Shown here: positions 10,546 through 33,667 of the stretch, one piece after another
Layout of the letters: every line of letters starts with the position of its first letter
Numbering within the stretch: position 1 is the stretch's first letter
Program-made: the position numbers and the translations under genes
The notes under the pieces: model-generated
Database searches by the model: none
The model's input: the letters and a program-made list of their open reading frames with translations, nothing else
What the model was told of the DNA's origin: nothing
Assembly: GCA_945925985.1 (NCBI GenBank)
Contig: CAMELV010000001.1
Span: 62,001-126,000 of the forward strand
Length of the DNA stretch: 64,000 nt
Direction of reading: 5' to 3'
Source: Comamonas sp. lk
Lineage (GTDB): Bacteria > Pseudomonadota > Gammaproteobacteria > Burkholderiales > Burkholderiaceae_C

Positions 10546-10954
10546 TCACCCTTTGCCCCCTGATCCGCTGACCCGGCTTGCCCTGAGCTGCCGTCGGCTG
10601 TTCCTGCGCAACCATGTGCTGCCGGTGCACATCGGCGCCCATGATTTCGAAAAAGGCGTGGCGCAGCGCCTGGTCTTCAACGTCGAGCTGTTCGTGCCCT
10701 ACAGCGCCTCCACCCCGCAGTCGGACCGGCTGGCCGAGGTGGTGGATTACGACTTTGTTCGCCACCTGATCGCCGAGCGGGTGCAGCGCGGCCATGTCGA
10801 GTTGCAGGAAACCCTGTGCGACGAATTGGCGGCCGCCCTGTTGTCCCACCCGCAAGTCCAGGCGGTGCGCCTGTCCACCTGCAAGCCCGACGTCTACCCG
10901 GATTGCGACGGGGTGGGGGTCGAAGTATTTCGCCTAAAAGGTTCACCGCTATGA
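10538..10954 (+). CDS. folB: Dihydroneopterin aldolase-like protein 1
   Basis: This 138-residue FolB/FolX-family protein contains IGAHDFEKG, VVDYDFV, LQETLCDELAAALL and CKPDVYPDCDGVGVEV, which correspond to the conserved substrate-binding glutamate regions and the catalytic-lysine strand. It would convert dihydroneopterin to 6-hydroxymethyl-dihydropterin, or epimerise a dihydroneopterin derivative. Its start overlaps the SDR gene by eight bases, and its stop overlaps the next folB by ATGA. It differs clearly from its neighbour, so the pair is an old duplication or two specialised activities. Confidence 0.75.
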   Translation: MVDHPLPPDPLTRLALSCRRLFLRNHVLPVHIGAHDFEKGVAQRLVFNVELFVPYSASTPQSDRLAEVVDYDFVRHLIAERVQRGHVELQETLCDELAAALLSHPQVQAVRLSTCKPDVYPDCDGVGVEVFRLKGSPL

Positions 10955-17457: not shown

Positions 17458-17469
17458 GGCCAGGCCGGC

Positions 17470-17483
17470 TGCATGCGTATGCA
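17470..17483. promoter_or_regulatory. Probable LacI-family operator O1
   Basis: TGCATGCGTATGCA is a near-perfect palindrome with the central CG typical of LacI-family operators. It differs at one position from the perfect copy at 18681. It lies about 80 bases upstream of the first NTF2-like gene and after the cyclo-ligase stop, where the promoter of the 16-kb locus is expected. Confidence 0.65.
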
Positions 17484-17562
17484 AGCTGGCTTGATATAGT
17501 CGCGCCCTGCGGTTGGCGGCATGGGCTGCGGCCGAACCACCCGTTCCAAGGAGCTCCAAGCC

Positions 17563-18624
17563 ATGATGACTGACGCGCTGAATCTTGCCAATAAACAGGC
17601 CGTACGCCGCCTGATGGACGCCTTGGCCGAAGCCAAGCCGGATGCGGTGGAGCGCCAGTTGGCGCAGGCCTACCACCCGGACGCCCAGTGGCGCGGCTCG
17701 CACCCCTGGAATGAAGCGCAGGGCGTGCAAGCCATCGCGCAGACGTTCTGGCAGCCCCTGTTGCAAGCGTTCCCGGATCTGGAGCGGCGCGACAGCCTGC
17801 TGCTTGGCGGGCACTACCAGGGGCGCGATTATGTGGGCGCCGTGGGCCACCTGTGCGGCCGTTTTCAGCGCGACTGGCTTGGCCTGCCGGCCACCGGTCA
17901 ACTGCTGTATTTGCGTTACGGCGAGTTTCACCAGATGGTCGACGGCCGCATTGTGCAGAGCACGGTGCTGCTCGATGTGCTGGACGCAATTCGCCAGATG
18001 GGCTTCTGGCCGCTGCCGCCCAGCCCGGGCTTTGAGGGCATGTGGCCCGGTCCCTTGGCGGGTGACGGCCTGGTGCTGACTGCCCAGGACCCGGCGCAAT
18101 CCGCTGCCAGCCTGGCGTTGACGCTGGCGATGCAGGGCTCGCTGGGCACGTATGACGACACGCTCAGTTTAGGGCGCGACGGCCTGCTGGCGATGCCGCA
18201 GCGTGATTTTTGGCACCCGCACATGATGTGGTTTGGCCCCAGCGGCATTGGCACTTCGCGCGGGCTCGATGGGTTTGTCGATGTGCACCAACTGCCGTTT
18301 CGCAATGCCTTCCCGCGCGACCCTAAGCTGCCCCAGCCTGTGGGCATGGGCCAGCATGGCGGCAGCCACTACGTACGCATTGGCGACGGCCGTTTCTCGG
18401 CCACCGGCGGCTGGCCCAGCCGGCATATGCTGCACCAGGGCGGTGGCTGGCTGGGCTTGCCGCCCACCGGGCGCGCCATCACCATGCGGGTGATGGATTT
18501 TTACAGCGCCGAGCAGGGGCTGATCCGCGAGAACTGGGTGCCGATCGACCTGCTCAACGTGCTGCTGCAACTCGACGTGGACGTGCTGGCACGGGTGCGC
18601 AGCCAGTTCGCCCGGCGCGGCTAG
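17563..18624 (+). CDS. Tandem SnoaL/NTF2-like protein 1
   Basis: This 353-residue protein consists of two NTF2-fold halves (about 10-150 and 170-350). The second half has WHPHMMWFGPSGIGTSRGL and LIRENWVPIDLLN; similar blocks recur in the proteins at 27673 and 28737. NTF2/SnoaL-like enzymes are small cone-shaped barrels that act as isomerases, dehydratases or epoxide hydrolases; the reaction here is unknown. There is no signal peptide, so it should be cytoplasmic. ATG 17563 is preferred because AAGGAG (17548-17553) is nine bases upstream; an ATG three bases later is also possible. It opens the locus and is separated from the next gene by 109 bases containing an operator. Confidence 0.75.
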   Translation: MMTDALNLANKQAVRRLMDALAEAKPDAVERQLAQAYHPDAQWRGSHPWNEAQGVQAIAQTFWQPLLQAFPDLERRDSLLLGGHYQGRDYVGAVGHLCGRFQRDWLGLPATGQLLYLRYGEFHQMVDGRIVQSTVLLDVLDAIRQMGFWPLPPSPGFEGMWPGPLAGDGLVLTAQDPAQSAASLALTLAMQGSLGTYDDTLSLGRDGLLAMPQRDFWHPHMMWFGPSGIGTSRGLDGFVDVHQLPFRNAFPRDPKLPQPVGMGQHGGSHYVRIGDGRFSATGGWPSRHMLHQGGGWLGLPPTGRAITMRVMDFYSAEQGLIRENWVPIDLLNVLLQLDVDVLARVRSQFARRG

Positions 18625-18680
18625 TCGGGTCCGGCTTAGGGGAAACTACGTATGCCCAAGCGCCTTATTTCGGGTTACAT

Positions 18681-18694
18681 TGCATACGTATGCA
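18681..18694. promoter_or_regulatory. Probable LacI-family operator O2
   Basis: TGCATACGTATGCA is a perfect 14-base palindrome with central CG, 40 bases upstream of the HisD-like gene, in the only sizeable gap among the first genes of the locus. With O1, about 1.2 kb away, it could allow repression by looping by the LacI-type protein encoded at 21374. Confidence 0.75.
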
Positions 18695-18733
18695 TAAATT
18701 TCTTTGTGTCAAATCAAACAAGGTGCACGGCAC

Positions 18734-20062
18734 ATGATTCGTTATCTCAAACGCGGTAAGGATGCCCAGGGCCGGGCCGACGACGATGCCCAGGTGCGTG
18801 CCACCGTGGCTGGCATCCTGAAAGACATTGAGCAACGCGGCGACGAGGCAGTGCGGGCCTACAGCCGCCAGTTCGACAGTTGGGACCCGGCCAGCTTCAC
18901 CCTGTCGCAGGCCGACATCGAGGCGGCGGTGCGCAAGCTGTCCGCCCGCGAAGTCGAAGACATCCGTTTTGCCCAAACGCAAATCCGCCAGTTTGCCCAG
19001 ATCCAGCGCGACAGCATGCGCGACGTTGAGGTCGAGACCCTGCCCGGCGTGGTGCTCGGGCACCGGCACATCCCGGTCAACGCGGCCGGCTGCTATGTGC
19101 CCGGCGGCAAGTACCCCTTGATTGCATCGGCCCACATGAGCGTGCTCACCGCCAAGGTGGCCGGCGTGCCGCGCGTGGTGTCGACCGCGCCACCCTACCA
19201 GGGCGCGCCACACCCAGCCATCGTGGCGGCCATGCACTTTGCTGGCGCCGATCAGATTTTGGTGCTGGGCGGCGTGCAGGCGGTGGCGGCCATGGCGATT
19301 GGCACCGAGTCGGTGGCGGCAGTGGACATGCTGGTCGGGCCGGGCAATATGTTCGTGGCCGAGGCCAAGCGCCAGTTGTACGGCCGGGTCGGCATCGACC
19401 TGTTCGCCGGGCCGACCGAAACCCTGGTGATCGCCGACGAATCGGTCGATGGCGAAATGTGCGCAGTCGACCTGCTGGGCCAGGCCGAGCACGGCCCCAC
19501 CTCGCCGGCAGTGCTGCTGACCACCTCTGAGAAACTGGCGCGCGACACCATGGCCGAGGTTGAACGCCAGCTCAAGATCCTGCCGACGGCGGCCATTGCC
19601 GGAAAGGCCTGGGAGATCTACGGCGAGGTGATCGTCTGCGACAGCGACGAGGAAATGCTGGCCAAGGCCGACGAGCTCGCCTCCGAGCATGTGCAGGTGA
19701 TGACGCGCGACCCGGACTACTTTCTTAAAGGCATGACCAACTATGGCGCGCTGTTCCTCGGGCCGCGCACCAACGTCAGCTTCGGCGACAAGGTGATCGG
19801 CACCAACCACACCCTGCCCACCAACAAGAACGCCCGCTACACCGGCGGCCTGTGGGTTGGCAAGTTCCTCAAAACCTGCACCTACCAGCGGGTGCTGACC
19901 GATGAAGCCAGTGCCAGTATTGGCGCGGTCTGCTCGCGCCTGTGTCACATGGAAAACTTTGCCGGCCACGGCGAACAGGCCAACCTGCGGGTCCGCCGCT
20001 ACGGCCAGCGCGCCGAGGTGCCCTGGTACCAGCCGGTGCCGGCGCTGGACGGACCCGCATGA
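18734..20062 (+). CDS. Histidinol-dehydrogenase-family oxidoreductase (HpsN-like)
   Basis: This 442-residue protein has the full HisD fold. Recognisable blocks are [34 protein letters not shown], the metal/substrate region [16 protein letters not shown] and [11 protein letters not shown], and the C-terminal [13 protein letters not shown]. Members outside his operons oxidise an alcohol via aldehyde to carboxylate with NAD; sulfopropanediol 3-dehydrogenase HpsN is one described case. No histidine genes are nearby and the context is catabolic, so I do not call it hisD. Its stop overlaps the next start by ATGA. The substrate is unknown. Confidence 0.8.
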
Positions 20063-20595
20063 AAGGGGCCCGCCCCGAACAGGCGGCGCTCACGCGCGAC
20101 AACGACCTGACCCAGACCGAGGCCACCCGCCGTGTCGTGGAGGGCATGGTCGATGGCCTGAACGACCACACCATCGACGGCATTGAGGCGTTTTTTGCCA
20201 AAGACTTTCGCTGGATGGGCAACGCCGGCTGTGGCACCAAGCTGGGTGTCAAGGCGTTCCAGGACAACTGGCAGCGCCCGTTCCAGGCGGCGTTCTCTGA
20301 CAAGGTCTGCATTGACGAGGCCCGCATCGTCCAAGGCGAGTGGATGGCCGCCTTCGGGCGCCAAGAGGCCACGCACTCAGGCACCTTCATGGGCATCGCG
20401 CCCACGGGCAAACGCATCGAGATCCGCTACATGGATTTCTGGAAGGTGCAGGACGGCAAGATTGTGGACAACTGGGTGTCGGTGGATTTTCCGCACGTGA
20501 TGCAGCAGCTCGGCGTGGACCCGTTCCAGGGCGAGGGCTGGGAGGCCTTTGACCGTGGCGAGCGCGCCCCGCCGCGCCCGGGCCTGGCCCCATGA
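20059..20595 (+). CDS. Single-domain SnoaL/NTF2-like protein 2
   Basis: This 178-residue protein is a single NTF2-like domain. It has the pattern [18 protein letters not shown] in the first strand region and [21 protein letters not shown], then [19 protein letters not shown], typical of SnoaL-like ester-cyclase annotations. It overlaps the HisD-like gene by four bases and the SDR gene by four bases, so its product is probably made in step with both. Function unknown; dehydratase or isomerase activity is a family-based guess. Confidence 0.75.
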
Positions 20596-21377
20596 GCCAG
20601 CCCGCGCCGGCCATGCTCAACCCGGTGACGCCTTCGCTCCGGCTGGATGGCCGCAGCGCCCTGGTGACAGGTGCTGGCCGAGGCATTGGCCTGGCCGCTG
20701 CCCATGCGCTGGCGCAGGCCGGGGCTGTGGTGACGCTGGCAGCCCGAACCGATACCGAGTTACAGACTGCGGCCGCTGCCATGCGAGCCTATGGGGCCAG
20801 GGCCGAGGTGATGGTGCTGGATGTCACAGACCCGGTGGCCGTGAAACAGGCCCTGGCCGATGCCGGGCCATTCCAGGTTTTGGTCAACAGCGCCGGCACC
20901 AACCGCCCCGCGCTGATCACCGAGACCCTGGACGCCGACTTTGACGCTGTGGTGAACCTCAACCTGAAGGCCGCCTTTTACCTGGCCCGCGAGGTGGCGC
21001 GTGGGCTGATCGGTGCGGGCCTGCCGGGCTCGCTGATCCAGATTTCCTCTCAAATGGGCCATGTGGGTGGCCCGAAGCGCTCGGTGTACTGCGCCACCAA
21101 GCATGCGGTGGAGGGCATGACCCGGGCCCTGGCCTGGGAACTGGGGCCGCACCAGATTAGGGCCAACACCCTGTGCCCGACCTTCATCGAGACAGCGATG
21201 ACCCGCCCGGCGCTGGCCGACCCGGAGTTTCGCCAGTTTGTGACCTCTCGCATTGCGCTGGGCCGGCTGGGTCAGTTGGAGGACATCATGGGTGCGGTGG
21301 TGTTCTTGGCCAGCGATGCCTCGGCCATGGTGACTGGCAGCGCGCTGATGGTTGATGGCGGCTGGACGGCGCAATGA
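20592..21377 (+). CDS. Short-chain dehydrogenase/reductase
   Basis: This 261-residue classical SDR has the cofactor motif TGAGRGIGLAAA near residue 28, NSAGTN, the catalytic serine in QISSQMGHVGG and YCATK as the YxxxK pair. The C-terminal GSALMVDGGW is typical of sugar or polyol dehydrogenases. It would oxidise a hydroxyl of the imported compound with NAD(P). It is coupled by ATGA overlaps both to the NTF2-like gene before it and to the LacI gene after it. Confidence 0.85.
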   Translation: MSQPAPAMLNPVTPSLRLDGRSALVTGAGRGIGLAAAHALAQAGAVVTLAARTDTELQTAAAAMRAYGARAEVMVLDVTDPVAVKQALADAGPFQVLVNSAGTNRPALITETLDADFDAVVNLNLKAAFYLAREVARGLIGAGLPGSLIQISSQMGHVGGPKRSVYCATKHAVEGMTRALAWELGPHQIRANTLCPTFIETAMTRPALADPEFRQFVTSRIALGRLGQLEDIMGAVVFLASDASAMVTGSALMVDGGWTAQ

Positions 21378-22408
21378 AGACACAGGCCACTTCGCTGGAT
21401 GTGGCGCGCCTGGCCGGCGTGTCGCAGTCGGCAGTGAGCCGCTGCTTTACGGCGGGTGCCAGCGTGTCGGAGGCCATGCGCGACAAGGTGCAAGAGGCCG
21501 CACGCAAGCTGGGCTACCAGCCCAACGCCCATGCCCGCAGCCTGATCACCGGGCGCTCCCGCATCATTGGCCTGGTGCTGTCGGCCCTTGAAAACCTGTA
21601 TTACCCGGCGGTGCTGGAGCGGCTGGCCAAGCGGCTGCAGCAAGACGGTTACCACCTGCTGATCTTCATTGGCGACAACGCCAACTCCGACGACCTGGTG
21701 GAAGAAATCCTGCAGTACAACGTGGACGGCATTGTGCTGGGCGCCACCACCCTGTCCTCGGCCCTGGCGCAACGCTGTGCCGATGCGAGCATTCCGGTGG
21801 TGTTGTTCAACCGCATCATGGCCTCGGGCAGCGCGGGCGCTGTCAGCTCGGTGCGTTCTGACAACGTGGGTGGCGGCCGTGACATTGCACGATTTTTAGT
21901 GGCTGGCGGCCACCAGCGCATAGCCTACATTGCCGGGCGTGAAGACTCGTCGACCAACCTGGAGCGGGAGCGCGGCTTTCGCGACGGTTTGGCGGAGCTG
22001 GGGCAACGCATTTATGCCCGTGCCATCGGCAATTACGACGTGGCGCAGGCCCGCCAGGCGGCCCGTGACCTGTTTGGCGACGCGACCGACCGGCCCGACG
22101 CGGTGTTTGTGGCGGGCGACCAGATGGCGATTGCCGTGCTCGACACCCTGCGCCACGAGCTGGGTCTGGCCGTGCCACAGGACGTGTCGGTGGTGGGCTT
22201 TGACAACGTGCCGCAAGCTGGCTGGGCCTCGTATGAGTTGACCACTTTTGAGCAACCGGTGGAGCCGATGGTGGAGGCCACGGTGGCCCTGTTGCAGGGT
22301 TATTTGCGTGAGGCTCAGACGCCGCCGAGTCGTAACCTGGTGGTGCCTGGGCAATTGATCATCCGTCAGTCGGCGCGCGTGAGCGCGCCAGGGAGCCAGC
22401 AGACATGA
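21374..22408 (+). CDS. LacI-family transcriptional regulator
   Basis: This 344-residue repressor has an N-terminal helix-turn-helix (LDVARLAGVSQSAVSRCFT, residues 5-23) and hinge helix (YQPNAHARSLITGRS), then a periplasmic-binding-protein-like effector domain (VVGFDNVPQAGW near the C-terminus). It most likely binds the TGCATACGTATGCA palindromes at 17470 and 18681 and releases them when the imported compound or an intermediate is present. The gene is embedded in the middle of the operon with ATGA overlaps on both sides, so it should be autoregulated. Confidence 0.9.
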   Translation: MKTQATSLDVARLAGVSQSAVSRCFTAGASVSEAMRDKVQEAARKLGYQPNAHARSLITGRSRIIGLVLSALENLYYPAVLERLAKRLQQDGYHLLIFIGDNANSDDLVEEILQYNVDGIVLGATTLSSALAQRCADASIPVVLFNRIMASGSAGAVSSVRSDNVGGGRDIARFLVAGGHQRIAYIAGREDSSTNLERERGFRDGLAELGQRIYARAIGNYDVAQARQAARDLFGDATDRPDAVFVAGDQMAIAVLDTLRHELGLAVPQDVSVVGFDNVPQAGWASYELTTFEQPVEPMVEATVALLQGYLREAQTPPSRNLVVPGQLIIRQSARVSAPGSQQT

Positions 22409-23376
22409 AGGGTTTTGACGCCGAGTTCAGCAACCTGGACCACTACATCCGGGTGATTACCGCCCGCATCTGGGAGGGTCGCCGCATTGACGATATCCGT
22501 TTGTATTACAGCGACCCCTGCGTGGTAGAAACACCCATGTCGGTCAGTAGCGCGGTCGAAGACGTGGTCACCGGCACCCGCGCCACCCTGGCCATGTTCC
22601 CGAACCGTCGCCTGCTGGCGGAAGACGTGATTCAGTCGGGGGACGACGAAGGCGGGTTCCTCAGCTCACACCGCATCATTTCGACCATGACCCATTTGGG
22701 CGACGGCAGCTTCGGCCCGGCCAGCGGTGCCCAGGTGCACGCGCGCACCGTTGCCGATTGCTTGTGCAAAGACAACCGCGTGATCCACGAGTGGCTGGTG
22801 CGCGACCAGGCGGCCATTGCCTTGCAGATTGGCAGCACGCCGCAGGCGCTGGCGCAGAGATGGCTGAACCAGCGGGGTGGCTGGAACAAGCCCGTGGTGC
22901 CTCCGGCACCGTCAGGCTATGTGTCGCACATCAGCCAGCACCCGTTGGCTCAAGCCTACGCCGGTGTTATCGAGGCCCTGGCGCAGGGCGAGGGCGATGT
23001 CACGGCGATCTATGACGAGGCGGCCCAGCAGATCAGCCCGGGGGAACACACCAGCTATGGCCATGACGAGATCACCGGTTTCTGGCACAGTGTGTTCGGT
23101 GCCCTGCGGGTGAAGCAGTTCACGGTGGAGCACCTGGCCTGGCAGCAAGACCAGGCCCAGAGCGGCCGCAGTGACAGGCTGGCCCTGCGTTTTAGAGCCA
23201 AAACAGTCCACAGCCCCCGTGATAGCTCACTTCTTCGCTATGGAAAAGAGAGCGGACGCGAGGTGGAGGTGATGGGCATTGTGCACGCTGAGCTGGTGCA
23301 GGGCCGGGTCCTGCGCGAGTGGGTGTTGATCGATGACGTGGCGCTGTGGATGCAAGTCCTGGTGCCGCAAGCCTGA
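22405..23376 (+). CDS. Tandem SnoaL/NTF2-like protein 3
   Basis: This 323-residue protein appears to contain two NTF2-like halves (about 15-150 and 180-320). The first has LYYSDPCVVETPMSV and VIHEWLVRDQAAIALQIG; the second HISQHPLAQAYAGVIEALAQ and VLREWVLIDDVALWMQ. It diverges more from the other family members in this locus. A dispersed mini-repeat encodes residues 262-279 (VHSPRDSSLLRYG). It is coupled to the LacI gene and followed nine bases later by the ABC ATPase gene. Function unknown. Confidence 0.7.
   Translation: MKGFDAEFSNLDHYIRVITARIWEGRRIDDIRLYYSDPCVVETPMSVSSAVEDVVTGTRATLAMFPNRRLLAEDVIQSGDDEGGFLSSHRIISTMTHLGDGSFGPASGAQVHARTVADCLCKDNRVIHEWLVRDQAAIALQIGSTPQALAQRWLNQRGGWNKPVVPPAPSGYVSHISQHPLAQAYAGVIEALAQGEGDVTAIYDEAAQQISPGEHTSYGHDEITGFWHSVFGALRVKQFTVEHLAWQQDQAQSGRSDRLALRFRAKTVHSPRDSSLLRYGKESGREVEVMGIVHAELVQGRVLREWVLIDDVALWMQVLVPQA
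23190..23242. repeat. Dispersed mini-repeat inside a gene, copy c
   Basis: It carries TTTTAGAGCC, CAGCCCCCGTG and the ATAGC...GCTAT stem. It is in frame inside the NTF2-like gene at 22405 and shares AGCCCCCGTG with copy d at 31388. Confidence 0.55.
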
Positions 23377-23385
23377 GGTTTTGAC

Positions 23386-24450
23386 ATGGCGCGTGTGCTG
23401 CTGAACAACATTTCCAAGTCCTGGGGCAGCGCCGTGGGCGTGAAGCACATGTCGCTTGACATTGCCGACGGCGAATTTCTGGTGTTGCTAGGCCCCAGCG
23501 GTTGTGGCAAAACCACCACCATGCGCATGGTGGCCGGGCTGGAAGACCCCAGCACCGGCGAGGTCTGGATTGGCGACCGCTGCGTGAATGGCCTGGAACC
23601 CAAGGACCGCGATGTGGCGATGGTGTTCCAGAGCTACGGCCTGTACCCGAACATGACGGTGTTTGAAAACATCAGCTTTCCGCTGCGCATCCGCGGCATG
23701 CCGGCAGCTCAAATCAAGCCGGCCGTACTCAAAGCCGCGGCGCAGGTGGAACTGACCGACTTCCTGGATCGTAGGCCCAAGGAGCTGTCGGGCGGCCAGC
23801 GGCAACGGGTGGCGCTGGCCCGCGCCATCGTGCGCCAGCCCAAGGTGTTTTTGATGGACGAGCCACTCAGCAATCTGGACGCCAAGCTGCGCGTCACCAT
23901 GCGCTCGCACATCAAGCACCTGCACCACTCGCTCGGGGTGACCACCATTTACGTCACGCACGACCAGATCGAGGCCATGACCTTGGCCGACCGGGTGGTG
24001 GTGATGAGCCGGGCCGAGATCCAGCAGATTGGCACGCCCGAGGTCATCTACAACCAGCCCGCCAACCTGTTTGTGGCCGGCTTCATTGGCTCGCCCTCGA
24101 TGAACCTGATTGCCGGGGCCCTGCGCGAAGGCGTGTTTGAGGCGCCCGGTGTGTCGGTGCCCGGTTTTGGCACGCTCAGCCTGCCGGATGTGGTGCTGGG
24201 CGTGCGTGCCGAGGACATGGCGGTCACGGCACCTGAGCAGGCCCAGATTCGCGCCGAGGTGTTCAGCTTTGAGCTGACCGGCGACTCCACCCTGGTGATG
24301 GTGCGCATCGGCGAGCAGGTGGTCACCGCGCGCGCCGGCAAGGACTACCGCGCCCGCATTGGCGACCCGGCAGGCTTTGCCGTCAGCGCCCAACAATGTC
24401 ACATTTTTGATGGCAAGACGCAGAACCGGCTGCGTCTAGAAGCCAATTAA
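23386..24450 (+). CDS. ABC transporter ATP-binding protein (CUT1 type)
   Basis: This 354-residue ATPase powers the importer encoded by the next three genes. Motifs are GPSGCGKTT (about 37-45), FQSYGLYPNM, LSGGQRQRVALARAI, FLMDEPLSNLDA and YVTHDQIEAMTLADR, followed by a MalK/UgpC-like regulatory domain with LGVRAEDM. It is related to but distinct from the ATPase at 1550. A run of eight C residues follows its stop codon (24451-24458). Confidence 0.92.
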   Translation: MARVLLNNISKSWGSAVGVKHMSLDIADGEFLVLLGPSGCGKTTTMRMVAGLEDPSTGEVWIGDRCVNGLEPKDRDVAMVFQSYGLYPNMTVFENISFPLRIRGMPAAQIKPAVLKAAAQVELTDFLDRRPKELSGGQRQRVALARAIVRQPKVFLMDEPLSNLDAKLRVTMRSHIKHLHHSLGVTTIYVTHDQIEAMTLADRVVVMSRAEIQQIGTPEVIYNQPANLFVAGFIGSPSMNLIAGALREGVFEAPGVSVPGFGTLSLPDVVLGVRAEDMAVTAPEQAQIRAEVFSFELTGDSTLVMVRIGEQVVTARAGKDYRARIGDPAGFAVSAQQCHIFDGKTQNRLRLEAN

Positions 24451-24477
24451 CCCCCCCCGGCCTTTTTGGAGAATGTC

Positions 24478-25746: not shown

Positions 25747-25756
25747 GACCTGCCGC

Positions 25757-26794
25757 GTGCGCTTCTCCACCTTCCTTCGTTTCGTCGGGCCGTCGGCAGC
25801 GCTGATGCTGCTGCTGCTGGCGCTGCCGCTGGCGGTCACCTTTTACCTGTCGGTGCGCAGCTGTGCACTGCAGATGGAGGTGGTCACGGTGACGGAAAGC
25901 AGCCCGTTTGGCACGAAGGAGGTGGTGACGCAGCGCGCGGTGATGGGGCCTGATGGCCGCGCACTGAGGGTGTGTCGTTTTGTCGGGCTGGAGTACTTCC
26001 GCAAGGTGCTGGGGCTGGACGTCGGCGACGGCGACCAGGCCGCCAGCAGCGCCCCGCCCGATGCCAGTGGTGCGGGCGCAGCACCGGCGGCGGATTCACC
26101 CCAGCGCGCCACCGAATTCATGGGTGCGCTGCGTTTTACCCTGCTGTACACCTTTGCCACCACCCCCTTTGTGCTGCTCTTGGGCTTTGCGCTGGCGCTG
26201 GGCGTGAACCAGGTCGGACAACGCTGGCGGCCGATCTACATCAGTGCCTCGCTCCTGCCCTTCATCATCACGCCAGTGGTGGGTGCCTTGGCGATCAAGT
26301 GGCTGTTTCGCGACAACGGCCTGGTGCCGTATTTCTTGTCGCAGTTTGGTATTTCGCTATTTTGGATGGCGCAGGCCTGGTCGGCCCGGCTGCTGATTAT
26401 TCTGTACGGCATCTGGCACGTGGTGCCCTTTGCCTTTATTGTGTTTTATGCCGGCTTGCAGTCGGTGCCGCAGGACAGCCTGGAGGCGGCCCGCATCGAT
26501 GGCGCCAACGCCTGGCAGCGCCTGCGCTATGTCACGCTGCCGCATCTGGCGCCCCTGTTTGTGTTTGTGACGCTGATCCACCTGATGGACGCCTACCGGG
26601 TGTTTGAGCCGGTGATGGTGCTCACGCAGGGCGCCTTCACCACCAGCGTGCAGTACCTCACCTATTACATCCTGCTGCAGGAAAACAACCCCTACAAGGC
26701 CAGTGCGGCCGCCGTGCTGACCACCGCCGGCATTGCCGTGCTGCTCATTCCCCTGCTGGTGCGCACCTGGAAAGAACAAAGGCGCGGAGGATGA
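25757..26794 (+). CDS. ABC transporter permease with extended first periplasmic loop
   Basis: This 345-residue MalF-type permease begins at GTG 25757, ten bases after the binding-protein gene. After the first membrane segment (ALMLLLLALPLAVTFYLSV) comes a loop of roughly 80 residues (about 32-115) rich in Ala, Ser, Pro and Asp before the second segment (FTLLYTFATTPFVLLLGFAL). MalF has an enlarged loop at a comparable place that contacts the binding protein. The EAA loop is DSLEAARIDGANAWQRL. It pairs with the permease at 26799. Confidence 0.88.
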   Translation: MRFSTFLRFVGPSAALMLLLLALPLAVTFYLSVRSCALQMEVVTVTESSPFGTKEVVTQRAVMGPDGRALRVCRFVGLEYFRKVLGLDVGDGDQAASSAPPDASGAGAAPAADSPQRATEFMGALRFTLLYTFATTPFVLLLGFALALGVNQVGQRWRPIYISASLLPFIITPVVGALAIKWLFRDNGLVPYFLSQFGISLFWMAQAWSARLLIILYGIWHVVPFAFIVFYAGLQSVPQDSLEAARIDGANAWQRLRYVTLPHLAPLFVFVTLIHLMDAYRVFEPVMVLTQGAFTTSVQYLTYYILLQENNPYKASAAAVLTTAGIAVLLIPLLVRTWKEQRRGG

Positions 26795-26798
26795 CACC

Positions 26799-27629
26799 AT
26801 GAAAAGACCTGCACGCGTCTGGAGCTTGTTGCTGCACCTGGCCTTGTTCGCCTGGCTGGTGATAGCTTGCCTGCCCATTGTCTGGACGGCCATCATCTCC
26901 CTGCGCCAGTACGTGGACGCGTTCTCGGTACCGGTCAAGTGGCTGGCACCGGTGACCTTTGAGAACTACAGCCGGCTGTGGATCGACAAGGCTTTTTACC
27001 GTAACTTTCTCAACACGGCTATCGTCACCTTTGGCACCGTGAGCGTCTCGCTCACGGTCGGTTGCCTGGCCGGCTATGCGCTGTCGCGCTATCGGGGTGC
27101 GGTGGGCTTTTGGCTGTTAATCACGGCCCTGGTGTTCCGCTCGCTGCCGCATTCCACACTGCTGCCCTCGTTCTACGTGATGTTTGACGCGCTGGGCGTG
27201 CGCAATGAATACTTCACGCTGATCCTGGTGCTGGTGGCGATCAACCAGCCCTTCACGATCTGGATGCTGCGCTCGTTCTTTGTCAACATCCCGCAGGAAC
27301 TGGACGAGGCAGCGTTGGTGGATGGCTGCAGCCGCTTCCAGGCCTTTCGCCGCGTCATCATCCCGGTGATGTGGCCGGGCGTGGTCACCACCGGCCTGTT
27401 CAGCTTTTTGTTGGCCTACAACGACTTTCTGCTCAGCTCATCCCTGGTCAACGCCGAGCGCATGACCATGCCCGCCGCCATTGCCAACGCCATCTCGGCC
27501 GACAGTGAAGCGTTTTTGATGCAGGGCGTAGCCGGCGCGGTCAGCATCACCATCCCCCTGATCATTTTGGTGCTGCTGTTCCAACGGCAAATCGTCTCTG
27601 GGTTGACCCAGGGCGCCGTCAAGGGCTGA
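26799..27629 (+). CDS. ABC transporter permease (MalG type)
   Basis: This 276-residue permease has six membrane segments and the EAA loop ELDEAALVDGCSRFQAFRRV. The ATG at 26799 follows GCGGAGG at a good distance and lies just past the stop of the previous permease. The C-terminus QRQIVSGLTQGAVKG is typical of MalG-like subunits. It completes the importer. Confidence 0.9.
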   Translation: MKRPARVWSLLLHLALFAWLVIACLPIVWTAIISLRQYVDAFSVPVKWLAPVTFENYSRLWIDKAFYRNFLNTAIVTFGTVSVSLTVGCLAGYALSRYRGAVGFWLLITALVFRSLPHSTLLPSFYVMFDALGVRNEYFTLILVLVAINQPFTIWMLRSFFVNIPQELDEAALVDGCSRFQAFRRVIIPVMWPGVVTTGLFSFLLAYNDFLLSSSLVNAERMTMPAAIANAISADSEAFLMQGVAGAVSITIPLIILVLLFQRQIVSGLTQGAVKG

Positions 27630-27672
27630 GCGCACGCCGTAACTCACGTCCCCATTACGAAACAACGCACCG

Positions 27673-28740
27673 ATGCCCACCACCTCACTCCCCGTCACGC
27701 CGGTTGCCAATCAAGCCGCGAAGCAGGCGGTGTGGGAATGGTGGGCGGCACTGGACGGCGCTGATGCGGTGGCGGCTCAAGCCAGCCGCCAGCTGCTGCA
27801 CCCCGATCTGGTGTTCCACGGGCACGACCCGGTCAACCAGCTGCAGGGGGTGGACGGGTTTCTGGATGGCTTCTGGCGGCCGCTGCGTGCTGCCTTCCCG
27901 GACCTGCAGCGGCACACCCATTTGTTGTTGGGCGGTGCCTCGCACGGCCGGCGCGACGGCAATGCCAGCCGTGACGGCCGGCATTGGGTCAGCGGCATGG
28001 GTTTGATGAACGGCCGCTTTCAGGCGGACTACCTCGGCATCCGCGCCACTGGCCAACAGGTCAGCCTGCGCTGGGGCGAGTTCTGCCGCATCGAGCAGGG
28101 CCGCGTGGTCGAAATTTTTTTCCTGATCGACCTGGTCGACCTGCTGCAGCAGCTTGGCATGGCGGTGTTGCCGCCGGCGCGTGGCGTCGATGGCATCTGG
28201 CCGGCGCCGCGCGCCGGCGACGGCGTCATGCTGCAGCCGCAGGACGAGGCGCAGACCCGGCACAGCCTGGACCACATTTGGCGCTTCATTTACCAGGGCC
28301 TGAACCGCTACGACCAGAGCGAACTGCGCAGCATGGGCATGGCCGACTGGTTCCACCCGCGCGTGCACTGGTTTGGTCCGGGCGGCATCGGCGCCTGCCT
28401 GGATTTCGCCGCTTTCGAGACCCTGCACCAGCAGCCCTGGCTGGTTGCCTTTCCCGACCGCTCGGTGCAGGACCTGGACGCGCTGATTGCCGAGGGCCCC
28501 TACAGCGGCGCGCCGGGTTGGGCCGGCGTCATGGCTACCCACAGCGGTCCCTACCTGGAAAGCCCGGCGACCGGGCGGCGCATTGCGGTCAATGGCCTGG
28601 ACTGGTGGAAGCGCGAGGGCGAGGTCTACACCGAGAACTGGGTGTTTGTCGACATGGTGCATTTGTTCCGCCAGTTCGGGGTGGACTTGCTGGCGCGCGC
28701 CCGTGACCAGCAAACCCAGCAGGCTGGGGCTGCGCCATGA
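27673..28740 (+). CDS. Tandem SnoaL/NTF2-like protein 4
   Basis: This 355-residue protein has two NTF2-like halves. It shares with the proteins at 17563 and 28737 the blocks WFHPRVHWFGPGGIGACL and PATGRRIAVNGLDWWKREG, then ENWVFVDMVHLFRQFGVDLL. It begins 43 bases after the last permease gene and ends in an ATGA overlap with the next paralogue. The conserved His/Trp/Gly-Pro block is a candidate active-site region. Function unknown. Confidence 0.75.
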   Translation: MPTTSLPVTPVANQAAKQAVWEWWAALDGADAVAAQASRQLLHPDLVFHGHDPVNQLQGVDGFLDGFWRPLRAAFPDLQRHTHLLLGGASHGRRDGNASRDGRHWVSGMGLMNGRFQADYLGIRATGQQVSLRWGEFCRIEQGRVVEIFFLIDLVDLLQQLGMAVLPPARGVDGIWPAPRAGDGVMLQPQDEAQTRHSLDHIWRFIYQGLNRYDQSELRSMGMADWFHPRVHWFGPGGIGACLDFAAFETLHQQPWLVAFPDRSVQDLDALIAEGPYSGAPGWAGVMATHSGPYLESPATGRRIAVNGLDWWKREGEVYTENWVFVDMVHLFRQFGVDLLARARDQQTQQAGAAP

Positions 28741-29777
28741 ATGCTGCCGATGTGCATGCTTTGAACAAGGCCGCGCTGGCGCCGCTGCGGGCGGCGCTGT
28801 ACGACTACCAGGCCGACGCCTTGCAAGCGGCGCTCAGGCAGCTGTTCCGGCCCGACGCGGTGGTGCAACTGGCCACGCCCTTGGAAGACCTGGCCGGGCC
28901 CGAGGGCCTGTACCAACAGGCTTACGCCCCCTTGCAGCAGGCCCTGCCCGATCTGGAGCGACGCGACACCATCGTCATGGCCGGTCCGAGCCCGCAGGGG
29001 CACCACTGGGTCGGCTGCTGCGGTTATTACACCGGAACCTTTGTACGGCCCTGGCTCGATATCCCGCCCACCGGCCACCAGGTGGCGATGCGCTTCCATG
29101 AGTTCTACCGCATGGTGGACGGCCAGGTGGTGGAGATGCAGGCGCTGTGGGACATCCCCGAGCTGATGCTGCAGGCCGGCGCCTGGCCAATGGCCCCCAG
29201 CCTGGGGCGCGAATGGCAGGTGCCGGGACCGGCCACGCAGGATGGGCTGGCGCTCGGGCCGCGCGACGGCCCGCGTTCCGACAGCAGCCAGCAGCTGGTG
29301 CTGGACATGCTGGCCGGTCTGTCGCGCTATGCCAGTGGCGGCGTGGCGGCGATGCAACTGGAGCGCTATTGGCACCCCAAGATGAATTGGTATGGGCCGG
29401 CCGGCATCGGTACCGCGCGCGGCTTGGCGGCATTCCGGCATTGGCACCAGATTCCATTTCTCAATGGCATGCCCAACCGCCGGGGTACCGGTGGCAAGGG
29501 CGAGTTCCTTGCCGACGGCGACTATGTGGCGGTGACGGGCTGGCCCAATATGTACGCCACCATCAGCGGTGACGGCTGGCTGGGCATTGCGCCGGCCGGG
29601 CAACAGATCACCATGCGCAGCCTGGATTTCTGGCGCTGCGAGCGCGGCCTGATTCGTGAAAATTGGGTGCTGGTGGACCTGCTGCATGTGTACCGGCAGG
29701 TTGGCGTCGATGTGCTGGCACGGCTGCGCGAGTTCAACAAGGCCCGCGCGCCACTGACCCTGCAGGACTGGGCATGA
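28737..29777 (+). CDS. Tandem SnoaL/NTF2-like protein 5
   Basis: This 346-residue tandem NTF2-like protein is closest by eye to protein 1: YWHPKMNWYGPAGIGTARGL, LGIAPAGQQITMRSLDFW and LIRENWVLVDLLHVYRQVGVDVLARL all have direct counterparts there. It overlaps the upstream paralogue and the downstream hydrolase gene by ATGA each, so the three are made together. The family resemblance across three large members suggests duplication within this locus followed by specialisation. Confidence 0.75.
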   Translation: MNAADVHALNKAALAPLRAALYDYQADALQAALRQLFRPDAVVQLATPLEDLAGPEGLYQQAYAPLQQALPDLERRDTIVMAGPSPQGHHWVGCCGYYTGTFVRPWLDIPPTGHQVAMRFHEFYRMVDGQVVEMQALWDIPELMLQAGAWPMAPSLGREWQVPGPATQDGLALGPRDGPRSDSSQQLVLDMLAGLSRYASGGVAAMQLERYWHPKMNWYGPAGIGTARGLAAFRHWHQIPFLNGMPNRRGTGGKGEFLADGDYVAVTGWPNMYATISGDGWLGIAPAGQQITMRSLDFWRCERGLIRENWVLVDLLHVYRQVGVDVLARLREFNKARAPLTLQDWA

Positions 29778-30466
29778 AACCGACACTGCTGTTGTTGCCG
29801 GGCACCCTGTGCGATTCGCGGATTTTCCGGCACCAGTGCCGGTCCTTGCGTGACTTGGCGGACCTGCGTGCGCTCGACTACGCCGGTCTGGACCGGTCGG
29901 GCGCCTGGCTCGACCGCCTGTTGGGCGAGCTGCCCGAACAGTTCTCGATTGCCGGGTTTTCGCTGGGCGGCCTGTGGGCGCTGGAGCTGCTGCGCCGCGC
30001 GCCGCAGCGGGTGCAGCGGCTGGCCCTGATCGCCAGCAATGCCCGGCCCGCCAGTGGGCGTGCCCGCCGCCGCAGCGCCAGCCAGTGGCGCGTCTGGCAG
30101 CGCGAGGGACCGGCGGTCGTGGCGCGCGGCGCCAAGCCGGCGTACTTTCACCACCCGAGTCAGCGCCAGCGCCATGGGCCGCTGGTGCGGGCCATGGCCG
30201 ATGCCACGCCGCGTCACGTGGCACGCGCTGAGTTCGCGTGGGCCGCCGCACGCCCCGACAGTCTGCCGGACCTGCACGATTTTGGTGGGCCGCTGCTGCT
30301 CGTCAGCGGCGAACACGACCGCCTGTGCCCTGCCGCCTGGCAGCGCGAAATGCAGCAGGCCCAACCGGCTGCGCGCTGGCTGGAACTGCCCCGCGTTGGG
30401 CACTTTGTGCCGCTCGAAGCCCCCGGGCGCTTGAGTCTGGCCCTGCGGCAGTGGCTGCAGGCCTGA
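29774..30466 (+). CDS. Alpha/beta hydrolase
   Basis: This 230-residue alpha/beta hydrolase has the oxyanion region LLLPGTLCDSRIFRHQ at the N-terminus, the nucleophile elbow GFSLGG (about residues 60-65), an acid in VSGEHDRLC and the catalytic histidine in LPRVGHFVPLEAP. It should cleave an ester, lactone or C-C bond in the cytoplasm. It is translationally coupled to NTF2-like protein 5. A lactonase or esterase step fits a sugar-acid type pathway, by inference only. Confidence 0.85.
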   Translation: MKPTLLLLPGTLCDSRIFRHQCRSLRDLADLRALDYAGLDRSGAWLDRLLGELPEQFSIAGFSLGGLWALELLRRAPQRVQRLALIASNARPASGRARRRSASQWRVWQREGPAVVARGAKPAYFHHPSQRQRHGPLVRAMADATPRHVARAEFAWAAARPDSLPDLHDFGGPLLLVSGEHDRLCPAAWQREMQQAQPAARWLELPRVGHFVPLEAPGRLSLALRQWLQA

Positions 30467-30510
30467 CCCAGCAGCGCCCGTCACCAACCCTTTTCACTCA
30501 AGGCACCCCC

Positions 30511-31674
30511 ATGTTGACCGAAGCCCAAATCCGCGAACGTTTTATCCCTTTCAGCAGCCTGCGCTACAGCACCGAGGCCTTTATTGACTACCGCATCCCG
30601 GGCTGCGCGCCCAAGAAGAACTACGCCCTGATCGGGCCTGGCGTGTCACAAAACCCGAACCAGCCGGTGAGCCTGCGAGAAAAGCATGGTTTCCAGGTGG
30701 GCGGCGTGGCCATGCCGCCAGGCAAAATCAACCCGCCGCACATGCACTTCACGGCTGAAGTCTTCATCTGCACCAAGGGCCGCTGGGACCTGCACTGGGG
30801 CTTCAACCCCGAGCCACTCAAAGCCGAGATCGGCGCAGGCGACATCGCCAGCATGCCGACCTGGATCTACCGCGGCTTTCAAAACGTGGGCGATGACGAG
30901 GGCTTCATGTTCACCGCACTCGGCCAGGACGACACCGGTGGCATTCTCTGGGGCCCGCAAACCCTGCAGGCAGCCCAGGAGCAGGGCGTGCACCTGACCG
31001 AGGACTACCAGATCATCGACGAGCAGCTTGGCCAGACCTGGGACGAGCACACCATGCGCCGGCTGCAACCCATGACGCCCCAGGAGATTTCGCAACTGCG
31101 CCGCTGGACGCCCGAGCAGATGGGCCAGCGCGTGGTGCGCCACGCTGATCTGCAGTGGTCGAGTCGCGCGCTGCTTGACGCCGCGCTACCGGGTTGCGGC
31201 GCCCAAATGGCCCCGGTGATCGGCTTGGGGCTGAGCCAAGACCGTAACCACCAAGCGCCCATCGGCAATGCGCACGGTTTCTCCATCGAGTGGCTCAAAA
31301 TCCCGGCCGGCGGCCAGGTGTCGCATCACCGTCTGGCCTGCCAGCAGGTGCTCACGGTGCACCGGGGTACGGTGGCCATTGAGGTATCAAATCAGGCTCT
31401 AGCCCCCGTGGATATTGAAGGTAATGCTATTACATCAATAGCAAATGGCCACGTCGAGGGTTGGGACAGCTTTGCCATGCCGCCCGAGGTCTGGCGCAGT
31501 TACCGCAACATCGGTGACACTGAGGCACTGCTGCTGCTGATGACACCGGGCGACGGCCGCAAAACCATCGACTGGGCGCCGGCGGTGGTCAGCGCTGCTG
31601 CCGAGGCCGGTGACGCCATCGACGCCAACGGTTACCTTGCCCTTAAACGTTTCACTGACAGGTCTCAACGATGA
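30511..31674 (+). CDS. Bicupin protein
   Basis: This 387-residue protein has two cupin halves. The first (about 60-150) shows PPHMHFTAEVFICTKGRWDL, with metal-type His and Glu; the second (about 230-360) shows SHHRLACQQVLTVHRGTVAIE. Bicupins are often dioxygenases, isomerases or decarboxylases. It starts 44 bases after the hydrolase gene and overlaps the MetE-like gene by ATGA. A mini-repeat (31388-31442) encodes residues 293-311 within the second half, so that loop is probably not essential. Reaction unknown. Confidence 0.75.
   Translation: MLTEAQIRERFIPFSSLRYSTEAFIDYRIPGCAPKKNYALIGPGVSQNPNQPVSLREKHGFQVGGVAMPPGKINPPHMHFTAEVFICTKGRWDLHWGFNPEPLKAEIGAGDIASMPTWIYRGFQNVGDDEGFMFTALGQDDTGGILWGPQTLQAAQEQGVHLTEDYQIIDEQLGQTWDEHTMRRLQPMTPQEISQLRRWTPEQMGQRVVRHADLQWSSRALLDAALPGCGAQMAPVIGLGLSQDRNHQAPIGNAHGFSIEWLKIPAGGQVSHHRLACQQVLTVHRGTVAIEVSNQALAPVDIEGNAITSIANGHVEGWDSFAMPPEVWRSYRNIGDTEALLLLMTPGDGRKTIDWAPAVVSAAAEAGDAIDANGYLALKRFTDRSQR
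31388..31442. repeat. Dispersed mini-repeat inside a gene, copy d
   Basis: TCTAGCCCCCGTGGATATTG plus a GCTATTACATCAATAGC hairpin. It is in frame within the bicupin gene and the clearest copy of the family here. Confidence 0.6.
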
Positions 31675-32867
31675 ACACCTCGCCGCGCCACACGTCGCCA
31701 CAACGCATCCTCACCACCCACGTCGGCAGCCTGCCCCGGCCGGAACACGTCGTCACGCAGCTGTTTGCCCAGGACAGCGGCCTCAATTACATCGAGGCCG
31801 AGTTCGACACCATCATGGCCGCCGAGGTCAGCGGCGTGGTGGCCCGGCAGGCGGCGTCCCGCGTTGATGTGGTGAGCGATGGCGAAATGAGCAAGATCTC
31901 TTACGCCACCTACATCCGGCATCGTCTGACCGGTTTTGAGCTAGGCGAAATGCCCCGCGCCACGCCGCGTGACCTGGATGACTTTCCTGATTTCAAGGAG
32001 CGCCTGGCCAAGCTGGGCGCCACACCCAAATACCAGCGCCCGATCTGCACCGGCCCGATTGCGGTCAAAGACCTGGCTGGCTTGCACAAGGACATTGCCA
32101 ACCTGCAGACGGCGGTGGCCGCTGCTGGCAGCACGGCCACACCGCCGGTGCGCGCTTTCATGAACAGCGCCTCGCCTGGCGTGATTGCGGTGTTTCAGCC
32201 CAACCGCTATTACGCCAGCACCGAGCAGTACCTGCAGGCCCTGGCCGAGGCCATGGCGACCGAGTACGAGGCCATCGTGGCCGCCGGGCTGGACCTGCAG
32301 ATTGACGCGCCCGACCTGGCCATGGGCCGGCACATCAAGTTTCGGGACGTGGACGATAACGAGTTCTTGCGCAACGCGCATTTGCAGGTGGAGGCGCTCA
32401 ACCACGCCCTGCGCAACATCCCGGCCGAGCGCATCCGCATGCATGTGTGCTGGGGCAACTATGAGGGGCCGCACCACTTTGACATCGGGCTGGAGAAGAT
32501 CCTCGACGTGGTGCTGAAGGCCAAGCCGGCCACGGTGCTGTTCGAGGGCGCCAACCCGCGCCACGCCCATGAATGGGAGGTTTGGGCCAAGGCCGGGCGC
32601 GAGGGCAAAATAGCCGACCACAAGGTGCTGGCGCCCGGGGTACTGGACACGGTCAACAACTTTATTGAGCACCCGCGGCTGGTGGCGCAGCGCCTGCTGA
32701 CCTATGCCAACATTGTGGGCCGCGAGCGTGTGATGGCCGCCACCGACTGCGGCTTTGGCACCTTTGCTGGGTTTGGTGCCATCCACCCGCCGATCTGTTT
32801 TGCCAAACTGGCCAGCATGGCCGAAGGCGCCAAAATGGCCAGCGACGAACTGTGGGGCCGGGCATGA
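31671..32867 (+). CDS. MetE C-terminal-domain-like protein (cobalamin-independent methionine-synthase family II)
   Basis: This 398-residue protein corresponds to the C-terminal catalytic barrel of MetE without the N-terminal half. It begins ILTTHVGSLPRP, carries the zinc-ligand regions HVCWGNYEGPHHFD and TDCGFGTFAG, and has DLQIDAPDLAMG in the middle. Stand-alone members include methyltransferases and the epoxyalkane:coenzyme M transferase, so thiol or methyl transfer to a substrate of this pathway is possible. It is coupled by ATGA overlaps to the bicupin and aldolase genes. True methionine synthesis is less likely in this setting. Confidence 0.78.
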   Translation: MNTSPRHTSPQRILTTHVGSLPRPEHVVTQLFAQDSGLNYIEAEFDTIMAAEVSGVVARQAASRVDVVSDGEMSKISYATYIRHRLTGFELGEMPRATPRDLDDFPDFKERLAKLGATPKYQRPICTGPIAVKDLAGLHKDIANLQTAVAAAGSTATPPVRAFMNSASPGVIAVFQPNRYYASTEQYLQALAEAMATEYEAIVAAGLDLQIDAPDLAMGRHIKFRDVDDNEFLRNAHLQVEALNHALRNIPAERIRMHVCWGNYEGPHHFDIGLEKILDVVLKAKPATVLFEGANPRHAHEWEVWAKAGREGKIADHKVLAPGVLDTVNNFIEHPRLVAQRLLTYANIVGRERVMAATDCGFGTFAGFGAIHPPICFAKLASMAEGAKMASDELWGRA

Positions 32868-33667
32868 GCGCCGCCCACATGCCGCTGGACACCCGCCTGC
32901 ATGAGCTGCTGCGCAGCGGTCGGCGCCTGCGGGGCATCTTCAATGGCATTCCCTCACCGGCACTGGTGGAGATGTGCGCCTTTGCCGGCTTTGATTTCCT
33001 CATCATCGACAACGAGCACGGCAGCGCCGGCATCGAAACCACCGAGCACATGCTGAGGGCCGCCCGCGCCAGCGGCCTGCCCGCACTGGTGCGCTGCCTG
33101 GAGCACGACATTGCCCGCACGCTGGATATCGGCGCCGGCGGCGTGCAGATCCCGATGGTCAACACCGCCGCCCACGCCGCCGCGCTGGTGCAACGCGTCA
33201 AGTACCCCTTGCCCCCCGGCGCCGAGGGCATCAGCGGGCAGCGTGGCAGTGCGTTTTCGACCCGCGCCGCCGGCTACGGCGCCTTTGGCGGGCCAGCACA
33301 CACCCAACGCAGCAACGAGGGTGTGGTGCTGGTGGTGATGGTGGAAACGCCTGAGGGTGTGGCCAATGCCGCCGCCATTGCCGCCGTGCCCGGGGTGGAC
33401 GCGGTGTTTGTTGGCCCGAACGACCTGGCGCACAGCATGGGCCATGAGAACCGCTTCCACGATGCGCCGGTGCAGGCCGCGATCGAGCGCACGATCAAGG
33501 CCGTGGCCGCTGCCGGCAAGTGCCCGGGTGTGCTGGCGCTGACCCATGAGGACGAAGACCGCTACGCCGACTGGGGCGCCCGCTATTTCGCCACCGTGAC
33601 CACGGGTGTGATCAACAAGGCGCTCAAGGAAGCCGCGCAGGGTGGCCGCGCCGCGCTCAACTACTGA
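32864..33667 (+). CDS. HpcH/HpaI-family aldolase
   Basis: This 267-residue class II aldolase has LIIDNEHGSAG (catalytic His/metal region near residue 51), VQIPMVNTAAHAAALV, and VDAVFVGPNDLAHSMG, a family signature. Such enzymes cleave 2-keto-3-deoxy acids or related compounds to pyruvate, or a related 2-keto acid, and an aldehyde. As the last gene of the locus it suggests the pathway ends in retro-aldol cleavage. The stop precedes a convergent ABC exporter gene by 15 bases. Confidence 0.85.
   Translation: MSAAHMPLDTRLHELLRSGRRLRGIFNGIPSPALVEMCAFAGFDFLIIDNEHGSAGIETTEHMLRAARASGLPALVRCLEHDIARTLDIGAGGVQIPMVNTAAHAAALVQRVKYPLPPGAEGISGQRGSAFSTRAAGYGAFGGPAHTQRSNEGVVLVVMVETPEGVANAAAIAAVPGVDAVFVGPNDLAHSMGHENRFHDAPVQAAIERTIKAVAAAGKCPGVLALTHEDEDRYADWGARYFATVTTGVINKALKEAAQGGRAALNY

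Follow-up and report, generated by a model that had tools for sequence, protein, structure and literature searches.

Candidate LacI-controlled, two-layer catabolic operon with tandem SnoaL proteins in Comamonas sp. lk

In a stretch of 64,000 nucleotides from Comamonas sp. lk (contig CAMELV010000001.1, positions 62,001 to 126,000; here called the window), 16 genes arranged head to tail on the + strand (17563..33667) combine five SnoaL/NTF2-like proteins with a HisD-like dehydrogenase, an SDR oxidoreductase, a LacI-family regulator, a CUT1-type ABC importer and a MetE-like protein; judged from the sequence, this set has about an even chance of being a dedicated, LacI-controlled catabolic operon, built in two layers and serving an imported sugar- or polyol-like compound. 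The observations on which the present analysis is centred are the gene content of the locus, its conservation, a shared operator sequence, the separate clades of the SnoaL proteins and the conserved catalytic residues. The catabolic layout proposed in an initial annotation, made from the letters alone, is thereby upheld: LacI, the CUT1 importer, dehydrogenases and an aldolase are present, the set is conserved across phyla, and the SnoaL paralogues fall into separate clades.

The locus and its candidate operator

All of the 16 frames are open, and 8 of the 15 junctions between them are 4-base ATGA overlaps, in agreement with the same-strand, ATGA-joined locus of 16 genes described initially; the count of five SnoaL/NTF2 genes, four of them tandem, with about nine domains, is likewise reproduced by Pfam, in which SnoaL or SnoaL_2 exceeds the cut-off in SnoA (353 amino acids; 17563..18624), SnoC (22405..23376), SnoD (27673..28740) and SnoE (28737..29777), all tandem, and in the single-domain SnoB (178 amino acids; 20059..20595), with nine domains in total. 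The names SnoA to SnoF were coined in this analysis. The second domain of SnoC is supported by SnoaL_2 only, and the cut-off of PF07366 (SnoaL-like cyclase) is exceeded by all five proteins. Pfam also agrees with the first assignment of the remaining genes, all on the + strand: the HisD-like Zn/NAD alcohol dehydrogenase (Histidinol_dh; 18734..20062), the SDR oxidoreductase (adh_short_C2; 20592..21377; NCBIfam matches below the cut-offs shown), the LacI-family regulator (LacI; 21374..22408), the CUT1-type ATPase (ABC_tran; 23386..24450), the solute-binding protein (SBP_bac_1; 24478..25746), two permeases (BPD_transp_1 in each; 25757..26794 and 26799..27629), the alpha/beta hydrolase (ABH; 29774..30466), the bicupin (cupin; CUP; 30511..31674), the MetE-like protein (31671..32867; Meth_synt_2 at 34.5 bits against a cut-off of 21) and the HpaI-type class II aldolase (HpcH_HpaI; 32864..33667; below every NCBIfam cut-off). 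Regulator, binding protein, both permeases and ATPase together make up the layout of a LacI-regulated CUT1 system. Among the SnoaL, MetE-like, bicupin and aldolase proteins of the operon, no NCBIfam model scores above its cut-off. Corrected starts were adopted for HisD (18734), CUP (30511), HpaI (32864) and, probably, the second permease (26799, taken from the translation). A scan for sigma-70 promoters and terminators remained near the level of shuffled sequence (2 against 1.8, and 16 against 13.1 with a standard deviation of 3.7, respectively).

A palindrome, with the consensus TTGCATACGTATGCAA, was derived from intergenic stretches of the window and its relatives. It occurs twice in the window, as CTGCATGCGTATGCAA upstream of SnoA (17469..17484; two mismatches) and as TTGCATACGTATGCAT upstream of HisD (18680..18695; one mismatch), while 100 shuffles averaged 0.15 copies and never gave two. 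In the whole genome (4.29 Mb, 94.8% complete) the core NTGCATNCGTATGCAN is found exactly at two places, both in the operon, and with one mismatch at two further places, the reversed control giving 0; in the loci fetched from relatives, a search for TTGCANNCGNNTGCAA allowing at most one mismatch finds 47 rows, one site being counted twice, whereas the reversed pattern finds 2. Most of these rows precede HisD or importer genes, and the position relative to HisD is kept in L002, L003, L134, L136, L137 and others; a few rows, such as that of L024, fall inside genes and look like chance.

The presence of the operator follows that of the regulator: where LacI reaches 47% identity, 36 of 42 loci have it; where LacI is more distant, 1 of 14 does, and where there is no LacI hit, 8 of 36 do. 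These are loci of at least 9 kb, some from one genome and many of them close relatives. Five of the six misses with a close LacI (L033, L041, L065, L079 and L110) start at or inside the operon, the site of L110 being found in the adjoining L135, and L034 is a real miss. We infer that LacI binds the candidate operator, and the operon is probably switched by its own LacI repressor. In L108 (genome G069; 9826-10748 and 6536-9311), neither the LacI match nor the TonB-receptor match is confined to a single frame, each extending over several.

Distribution among relatives and the proposed two-layer arrangement

Loci L001-L080 were fetched for SnoD (151 stretches matched, 96 encoding a relative, best 80 kept) and scored by tblastn at 60 bits; as the counts are conditional on SnoD, its own presence carries no weight, and many loci are closely related to each other. 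The protein search gave 847 relatives of SnoD, with about 60% identity reached in Chloroflexota, Bacteroidota and Acidimicrobiales-named proteins among the best 120 of the 847; at the level of the locus, the closest named relatives are betaproteobacterial records (L001-L005). Of the best 80 loci, 39 extend over 18 kb or more; in these, at least three SnoaL hits are found in 36, MetE in 33, SnoC and CUP in 32 each, HisD and SnoB in 30 each, LacI in 29, and each importer gene and SDR in 26. Because these loci mostly share SnoaL, MetE, SnoC, CUP and HisD, the co-occurrence of the operon's genes exceeds chance, and the neighbourhood search for HisD-like, tandem SnoaL and MetE-like genes suggested initially does find them together.

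A HisD or MetE hit is present in the SnoD loci of at least 10 kb (n=61) of Pseudomonadota (39/48), Actinomycetota (4/4), Chloroflexota (3/4), Myxococcota (2/2), Acidobacteriota (1/1) and Bacteroidota (1/2). Gene sets resembling that of the operon are found in members of six phyla, some of them on plasmids, and partly in a haloarchaeon; the operon is, in part, common to many water and soil bacteria. Plasmid-borne sets are those of Ruegeria conchae (with MetE), Paracoccus alcaliphilus (L082) and Ensifer adhaerens (L086, an unannotated record), in all of which RraA occupies the place of HpaI. On a plasmid of the haloarchaeon Halobellus limi (L085:8143-14536), a MetE-like gene comes after five ester cyclases, four of them tandem; genes for an ABC importer and an aldehyde dehydrogenase lie upstream. 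Within 300 genomes of the window's order, a HisD-like protein at E 1e-150 or better is encoded by 45 and the MetE-like protein at 1e-60 by 16, the genome of the window included in both counts, and SnoB at 1e-30 is absent from all but that genome.

The 45 genomes with the HisD-like protein supplied 14 new stretches (L136-L149), five of which (L136, L137, L138, L140 and L141) carry LacI, SDR and the operator. In L136, L137, L138 and L140, the operator, HisD, SDR and LacI stand together, and these stretches give no hit for SnoaL, CUP or MetE. L137 has HpaI in addition and L140 RraA, both with a TctC receptor. Genome G137 (L134) has Amidohydro_2, operator, HisD, SDR, LacI, SnoC, importer, CUP and HpaI; in genome G175 (L133), the operator is accompanied by LacI, SnoC, importer and CUP, and a class II aldolase adjoins LacI. 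SnoC is the only SnoaL protein seen in these two stretches, and no SnoD-like match at 1e-10 is found in either genome. In both, the metE-like gene lies on a different contig from LacI, that of G175 deep in its contig and truly apart, that of G137 at a contig end, yet it is preceded by the operator: G175 holds two exact copies of TTGCATNCGNATGCAN, placed at LacI and at the metE-like gene, and G137 holds three, of which two are at these positions. Since it carries the operator on another contig in both genomes, the metE-like gene appears to belong to the regulon.

The most recurrent part of the system is LacI with the operator and HisD with SDR, to which exceptions exist, and the SnoaL genes would form a module added to it. 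This distribution suggests two layers, namely a lower one of HisD and SDR, with or without an aldolase, which occurs without SnoaL proteins, and an added upper module that would comprise SnoC, the bicupin, the hydrolase and the MetE-like protein, and then SnoA, SnoB, SnoD and SnoE. To call the locus built around five NTF2 proteins, as was done initially, is thus an overstatement, given the four stretches without any SnoaL hit and the two in which SnoC stands alone. The initial annotation had also held that its proposal would fall if the NTF2-like genes were absent from homologous loci; such absence is seen in part, for all SnoaL genes in the former stretches and for most of them in the latter, and is not seen in the 36 of 39 SnoD-selected loci that keep at least three SnoaL hits.

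Several observations weigh against a two-layer operon with a shared operator. Many of the loci in which the operator was counted had themselves supplied its consensus, and many are closely related. In 9 of the 14 new stretches (L139, L142-L149) no LacI or operator hit is found; the HisD-like enzyme therefore has other settings too. Near the genes of L136 and L138, there is neither an HpaI nor an RraA hit. The stretch of G175 (L133) has no HisD or SDR hit, the best HisD-like protein elsewhere in that genome being 49-50% identical, so that HisD is not always part of the system. The sets of Paracoccus (L082) and Ensifer (L086) lack a nearby metE-like gene, and any methyl step is therefore not universal. 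The Halobellus stretch has no HisD hit, and its four tandem copies form a clade of their own (support 98), so that the Halobellus set was expanded separately.

In L109 and L112, the neighbours of the metE-like gene that stands apart from LacI were considered as a guide and set aside, since the picture is inconsistent (Aldolase_II, thioesterase, MR_MLE, Sua5 and PurK; CobW, an amidohydrolase and a phosphonate-binding gene). In GC-rich loci, several open reading frame calls that resembled antisense frames were dropped. About 8 kb from this gene in G137, DUF6279 and glmU-like genes are identified by Pfam (L112:9232-11627); past the operon in the window (35531-37847), a gene adjoining a glmU-like gene was noted by eye.

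SnoaL paralogues, bicupin and MetE-like protein

The tree of tandem SnoaL proteins contains 62 sequences of 300-420 amino acids, SnoB being excluded, which were taken from the window, from L081 and L085 and from 19 of the 80 loci; it is a quick tree, with support from the SH-like approximate likelihood ratio test (SH-aLRT) only and a midpoint root, in which 21 of the 59 inner branches are open and the placement of three long-branch rows is unsure. Clades are found for SnoD (n=18, support 99, six phyla), SnoE (n=8, support 99, three phyla), SnoC (n=13, support 100, four phyla) and SnoF (n=13, support 100), the last having no member in the window; SnoA groups with two other proteins (support 98), all from Pseudomonadota, and no wider spread of it is seen in the tree. 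At least SnoC, SnoD and SnoE are, on this tree, distinct old paralogues and not recent duplicates, because their separate clades cross phyla.

An aspartate aligned with the acid-base position of the SnoaL family is invariant in SnoB (D143; 19 sequences) and in both halves of SnoD (D153 and D327; 16 sequences), and we take it to be the counterpart of the catalytic Asp of SnoaL. SnoB is matched by profile to SnoaL-type structures; the model of SnoD, which is weak (predicted local distance difference test, pLDDT, 70.0) and trusted for its first domain alone, resembles IdmH and SnoaL2 in one domain. The polyketide cyclases SnoaL, IdmH and SnoaL2 thus have their fold in common with the proteins of the operon, and the tandem epoxide hydrolase 3RGA has a tandem layout like theirs, but the setting of the operon is catabolic and identities are about 13-24% among the structure matches listed. 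A loose parallel is offered by MgaD, an NTF2-family protein and predicted isomerase in the syringate breakdown cluster of Pseudomonas NGC7, which differs in its aromatic pathway and its pfam13577 domain (PMC12314914).

Whether several SnoaL proteins imply several successive steps is a separate matter, and there is an appreciable chance, well below an even one, that they are instead alternatives for stereoisomers or related substrates, or binding proteins. The subsets vary between loci, relatives do without most of them, and Halobellus has multiplied one clade independently, all of which would suit such a role; on the other hand, the same clades recur together across phyla, and the invariant aspartates of SnoB and SnoD weigh against it.

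In the bicupin (numbered from 30508), H78, H80 and E84 are invariant and Arg122 stands where the usual cupin motif has a third histidine. Among the 50 structure matches listed for its model (pLDDT 80.7) there are only generic bicupins, vicilin and oxalate decarboxylase for example. The solute-binding protein is closest to sugar and polyol binders in the PDB, at best 58.7 bits, SmoF and a sorbitol-named protein included.

The MetE-like protein retains the residues of a core methionine synthase. In E. coli MetE, zinc is bound by H641, C643, E665 and C726 and the substrate by S433, E484 and D599 (residue list in PMC7857596); in the window's protein H258, C260, E292 and C360 sit at the zinc positions and S20, E72 and D212 at the homocysteine positions, all invariant in 16 sequences, by profile alignments to 1YPX, 3RPD and Arabidopsis MetE. 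Pfam sees no folate domain in it, and core enzymes that lack this domain take other methyl donors (PMC7005905 and PMC12366255). The same residues and the same single barrel lacking a folate domain are found in MesA-MesD and core-MetE (PMC7857596 and PMC7005905), but the window's protein differs from them in its catabolic locus, and a single-sequence search with it misses the MesD structure 3RPD. It does not group with MesD by phmmer, which gives no PDB match at 1e-3, 3RPD being reached by profile only, and all NCBIfam methionine synthase models are below cut-off. It is probably not the ordinary methionine synthase of the cell, because a separate MesD-like protein is encoded at G000:C3:106665-107645 (419 bits to 3RPD) and no match to a B12-dependent activation domain is found in the window's genome (G000); two more Meth_synt_2 matches are located at G000:C9:2554-3546 and G000:C1:153953-154945.

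Since the MetE-like protein keeps the zinc and homocysteine residues in the absence of a folate domain and is probably not the ordinary synthase, a methyl group on the substrate is conceivable, though with little confidence, this being the weakest element of the whole proposal. Mycosporine-type compounds, considered for their methyl group and habitats, were dropped: no gene favours them over other methylated compounds, and the open-access literature search showed no title on their bacterial breakdown. MetE-like genes are also met in other company. On the Novosphingobium plasmid pLA3 (L083:9995-19254) one occurs with an NTF2 gene and with LigAB-type dioxygenase, aminomethyltransferase-family and folate C1 genes; on a Rhodococcus NJ-530 plasmid (L084:9989-14351) the MetE-like gene adjoins a 2-oxoglutarate oxygenase gene, and nearby phytanoyl-CoA dioxygenase and HD-domain genes form a pair which we take to be reminiscent of phosphonate oxidation. 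In L018:991-9990, a pterin-binding methyltransferase-type gene adjoins the SnoD homologue, and SDR, HpaI, URO-D, fucose-isomerase-like, creatininase and Ldh_2 genes lie on the opposite strand; the replacement of MetE by a corrinoid system, suggested by Pterin_bind beside SnoD and URO-D nearby, was rejected, this being a single metagenome-assembled genome with no HisD or CUP hits in the stretch.

The predicted route and its alternatives

Every reaction, their order and the substrate are what we infer, and the route may be pictured as follows. The CUT1 importer would bring in a sugar- or polyol-like compound, and the upper layer (importer, SnoC, bicupin, alpha/beta hydrolase and MetE-like protein) would convert a larger, perhaps methylated compound into the substrate of the lower layer; the MetE-like protein would move a methyl group to homocysteine, and SnoA, SnoB, SnoD and SnoE might be further distinct acid-base enzymes, carrying out enolisation, isomerisation or elimination. 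In the lower layer, the SDR would oxidise a secondary alcohol, the HisD-like enzyme, with zinc and NAD, a terminal CH2OH to the carboxylate, and an aldolase would cleave the resulting oxo-acid, a part taken by HpaI in this operon and by RraA, or perhaps a class II aldolase, in relatives. The boldest version, which we think improbable, would have an O-methylated sugar, polyol or cyclitol of algal or cyanobacterial origin degraded by a new pathway: several SnoaL enzymes would catalyse eliminations or isomerisations one after another, and a core methionine synthase of a further family would pass the methyl group, directly or via one carrier, to homocysteine, so that demethylation would feed methionine.

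It is equally improbable, in our estimate, that the locus encodes a known sugar-acid or polyol pathway whose SnoaL proteins are annotated otherwise and which was described outside the open-access literature. The HisD-like protein is common in the window's order, and the literature search covered open-access papers only; nevertheless, no such paper was found there, and the NCBIfam models leave the SnoaL, MetE-like, bicupin and aldolase proteins below cut-off. The initial statement that no described pathway has this gene set stands to the extent that open-access papers hold no description of it, a weak absence with subscription papers outside the search.

The HisD-like enzyme bears on a further alternative, the breakdown of the organosulfonate 2,3-dihydroxypropane-1-sulfonate (DHPS), in which it would be HpsN. 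The nearest solved structure is indeed that of HpsN, which scores 385 bits where the best histidinol dehydrogenase reaches 250, and the score to TIGR00069 (HisD) is 444.8 bits, above the cut-off of 243.8. HpsN is the R-DHPS 3-dehydrogenase of hpsNOP systems and has the HisD fold and catalytic residues in common with the window's enzyme, in which (numbering from 18731) E319, H320, D353 and H413 align by profile with Glu318, His319, Asp352 and His411 of CpHpsN (PMC11382572). These four residues, together with Q251 and H254, are invariant in 15 sequences. Q251 and H254 are, by HisD, presumably the remaining zinc ligands. The HpsN motif is G-R-Y-A/S-H, ending in His126 (PMC11382572). The window's enzyme reads GKYPL (GGKYPL with the preceding residue), neither the HpsN GRYA/SH nor the HisD GSAPL, and the final histidine is replaced by L or M in all 43 that were read of the 50 loci with a HisD hit (7 unread) and is absent in 17 of the 18 rows from the window's order (one unread; L110 and L135 are one gene). 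An SDR with PF13561, the domain of hpsO, is present among the 16 genes, and no hpsP-type PF00107/PF08240 gene is. As compared with HpsN systems (PMC11382572), the operon is without the His126 motif and sulfolyase genes and has an ABC importer and SnoaL genes. Sulfatase and TonB-receptor genes do lie near the SnoD homologue in two gammaproteobacterial metagenome-assembled genomes (L012:14306-16588, by Pfam, and L024:13747, by the same open reading frame cluster), which would fit a sulfonate; with the motif different and the sulfolyase genes not among the 16, DHPS breakdown via HpsN was nonetheless dropped and is very unlikely. By its motif, the window's enzyme is neither a typical HisD nor HpsN. 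Other matches to the histidinol dehydrogenase family in the genome are found at G000:C35:25300-26487, G000:C53:20487-21176 and G000:C49:5-493, the last two apparently one gene split by contig ends.

Finally, a biosynthetic polyketide-like cluster, as the fold and sequence closest to SnoaL, IdmH and SnoaL2 might suggest, is scarcely credible, no polyketide synthase gene being among the 16 and LacI and a sugar-type importer being present.

If the proposed LacI-controlled, two-layer operon is real, it would add a catabolic route spread over several phyla and on plasmids, it would assign tandem SnoaL proteins, at present annotated only as ester cyclases, a part in catabolism, and it would provide a third kind of HisD-like dehydrogenase besides HisD and HpsN; the regulator and its candidate operator would, moreover, offer a handle for finding the inducer and hence the substrate.

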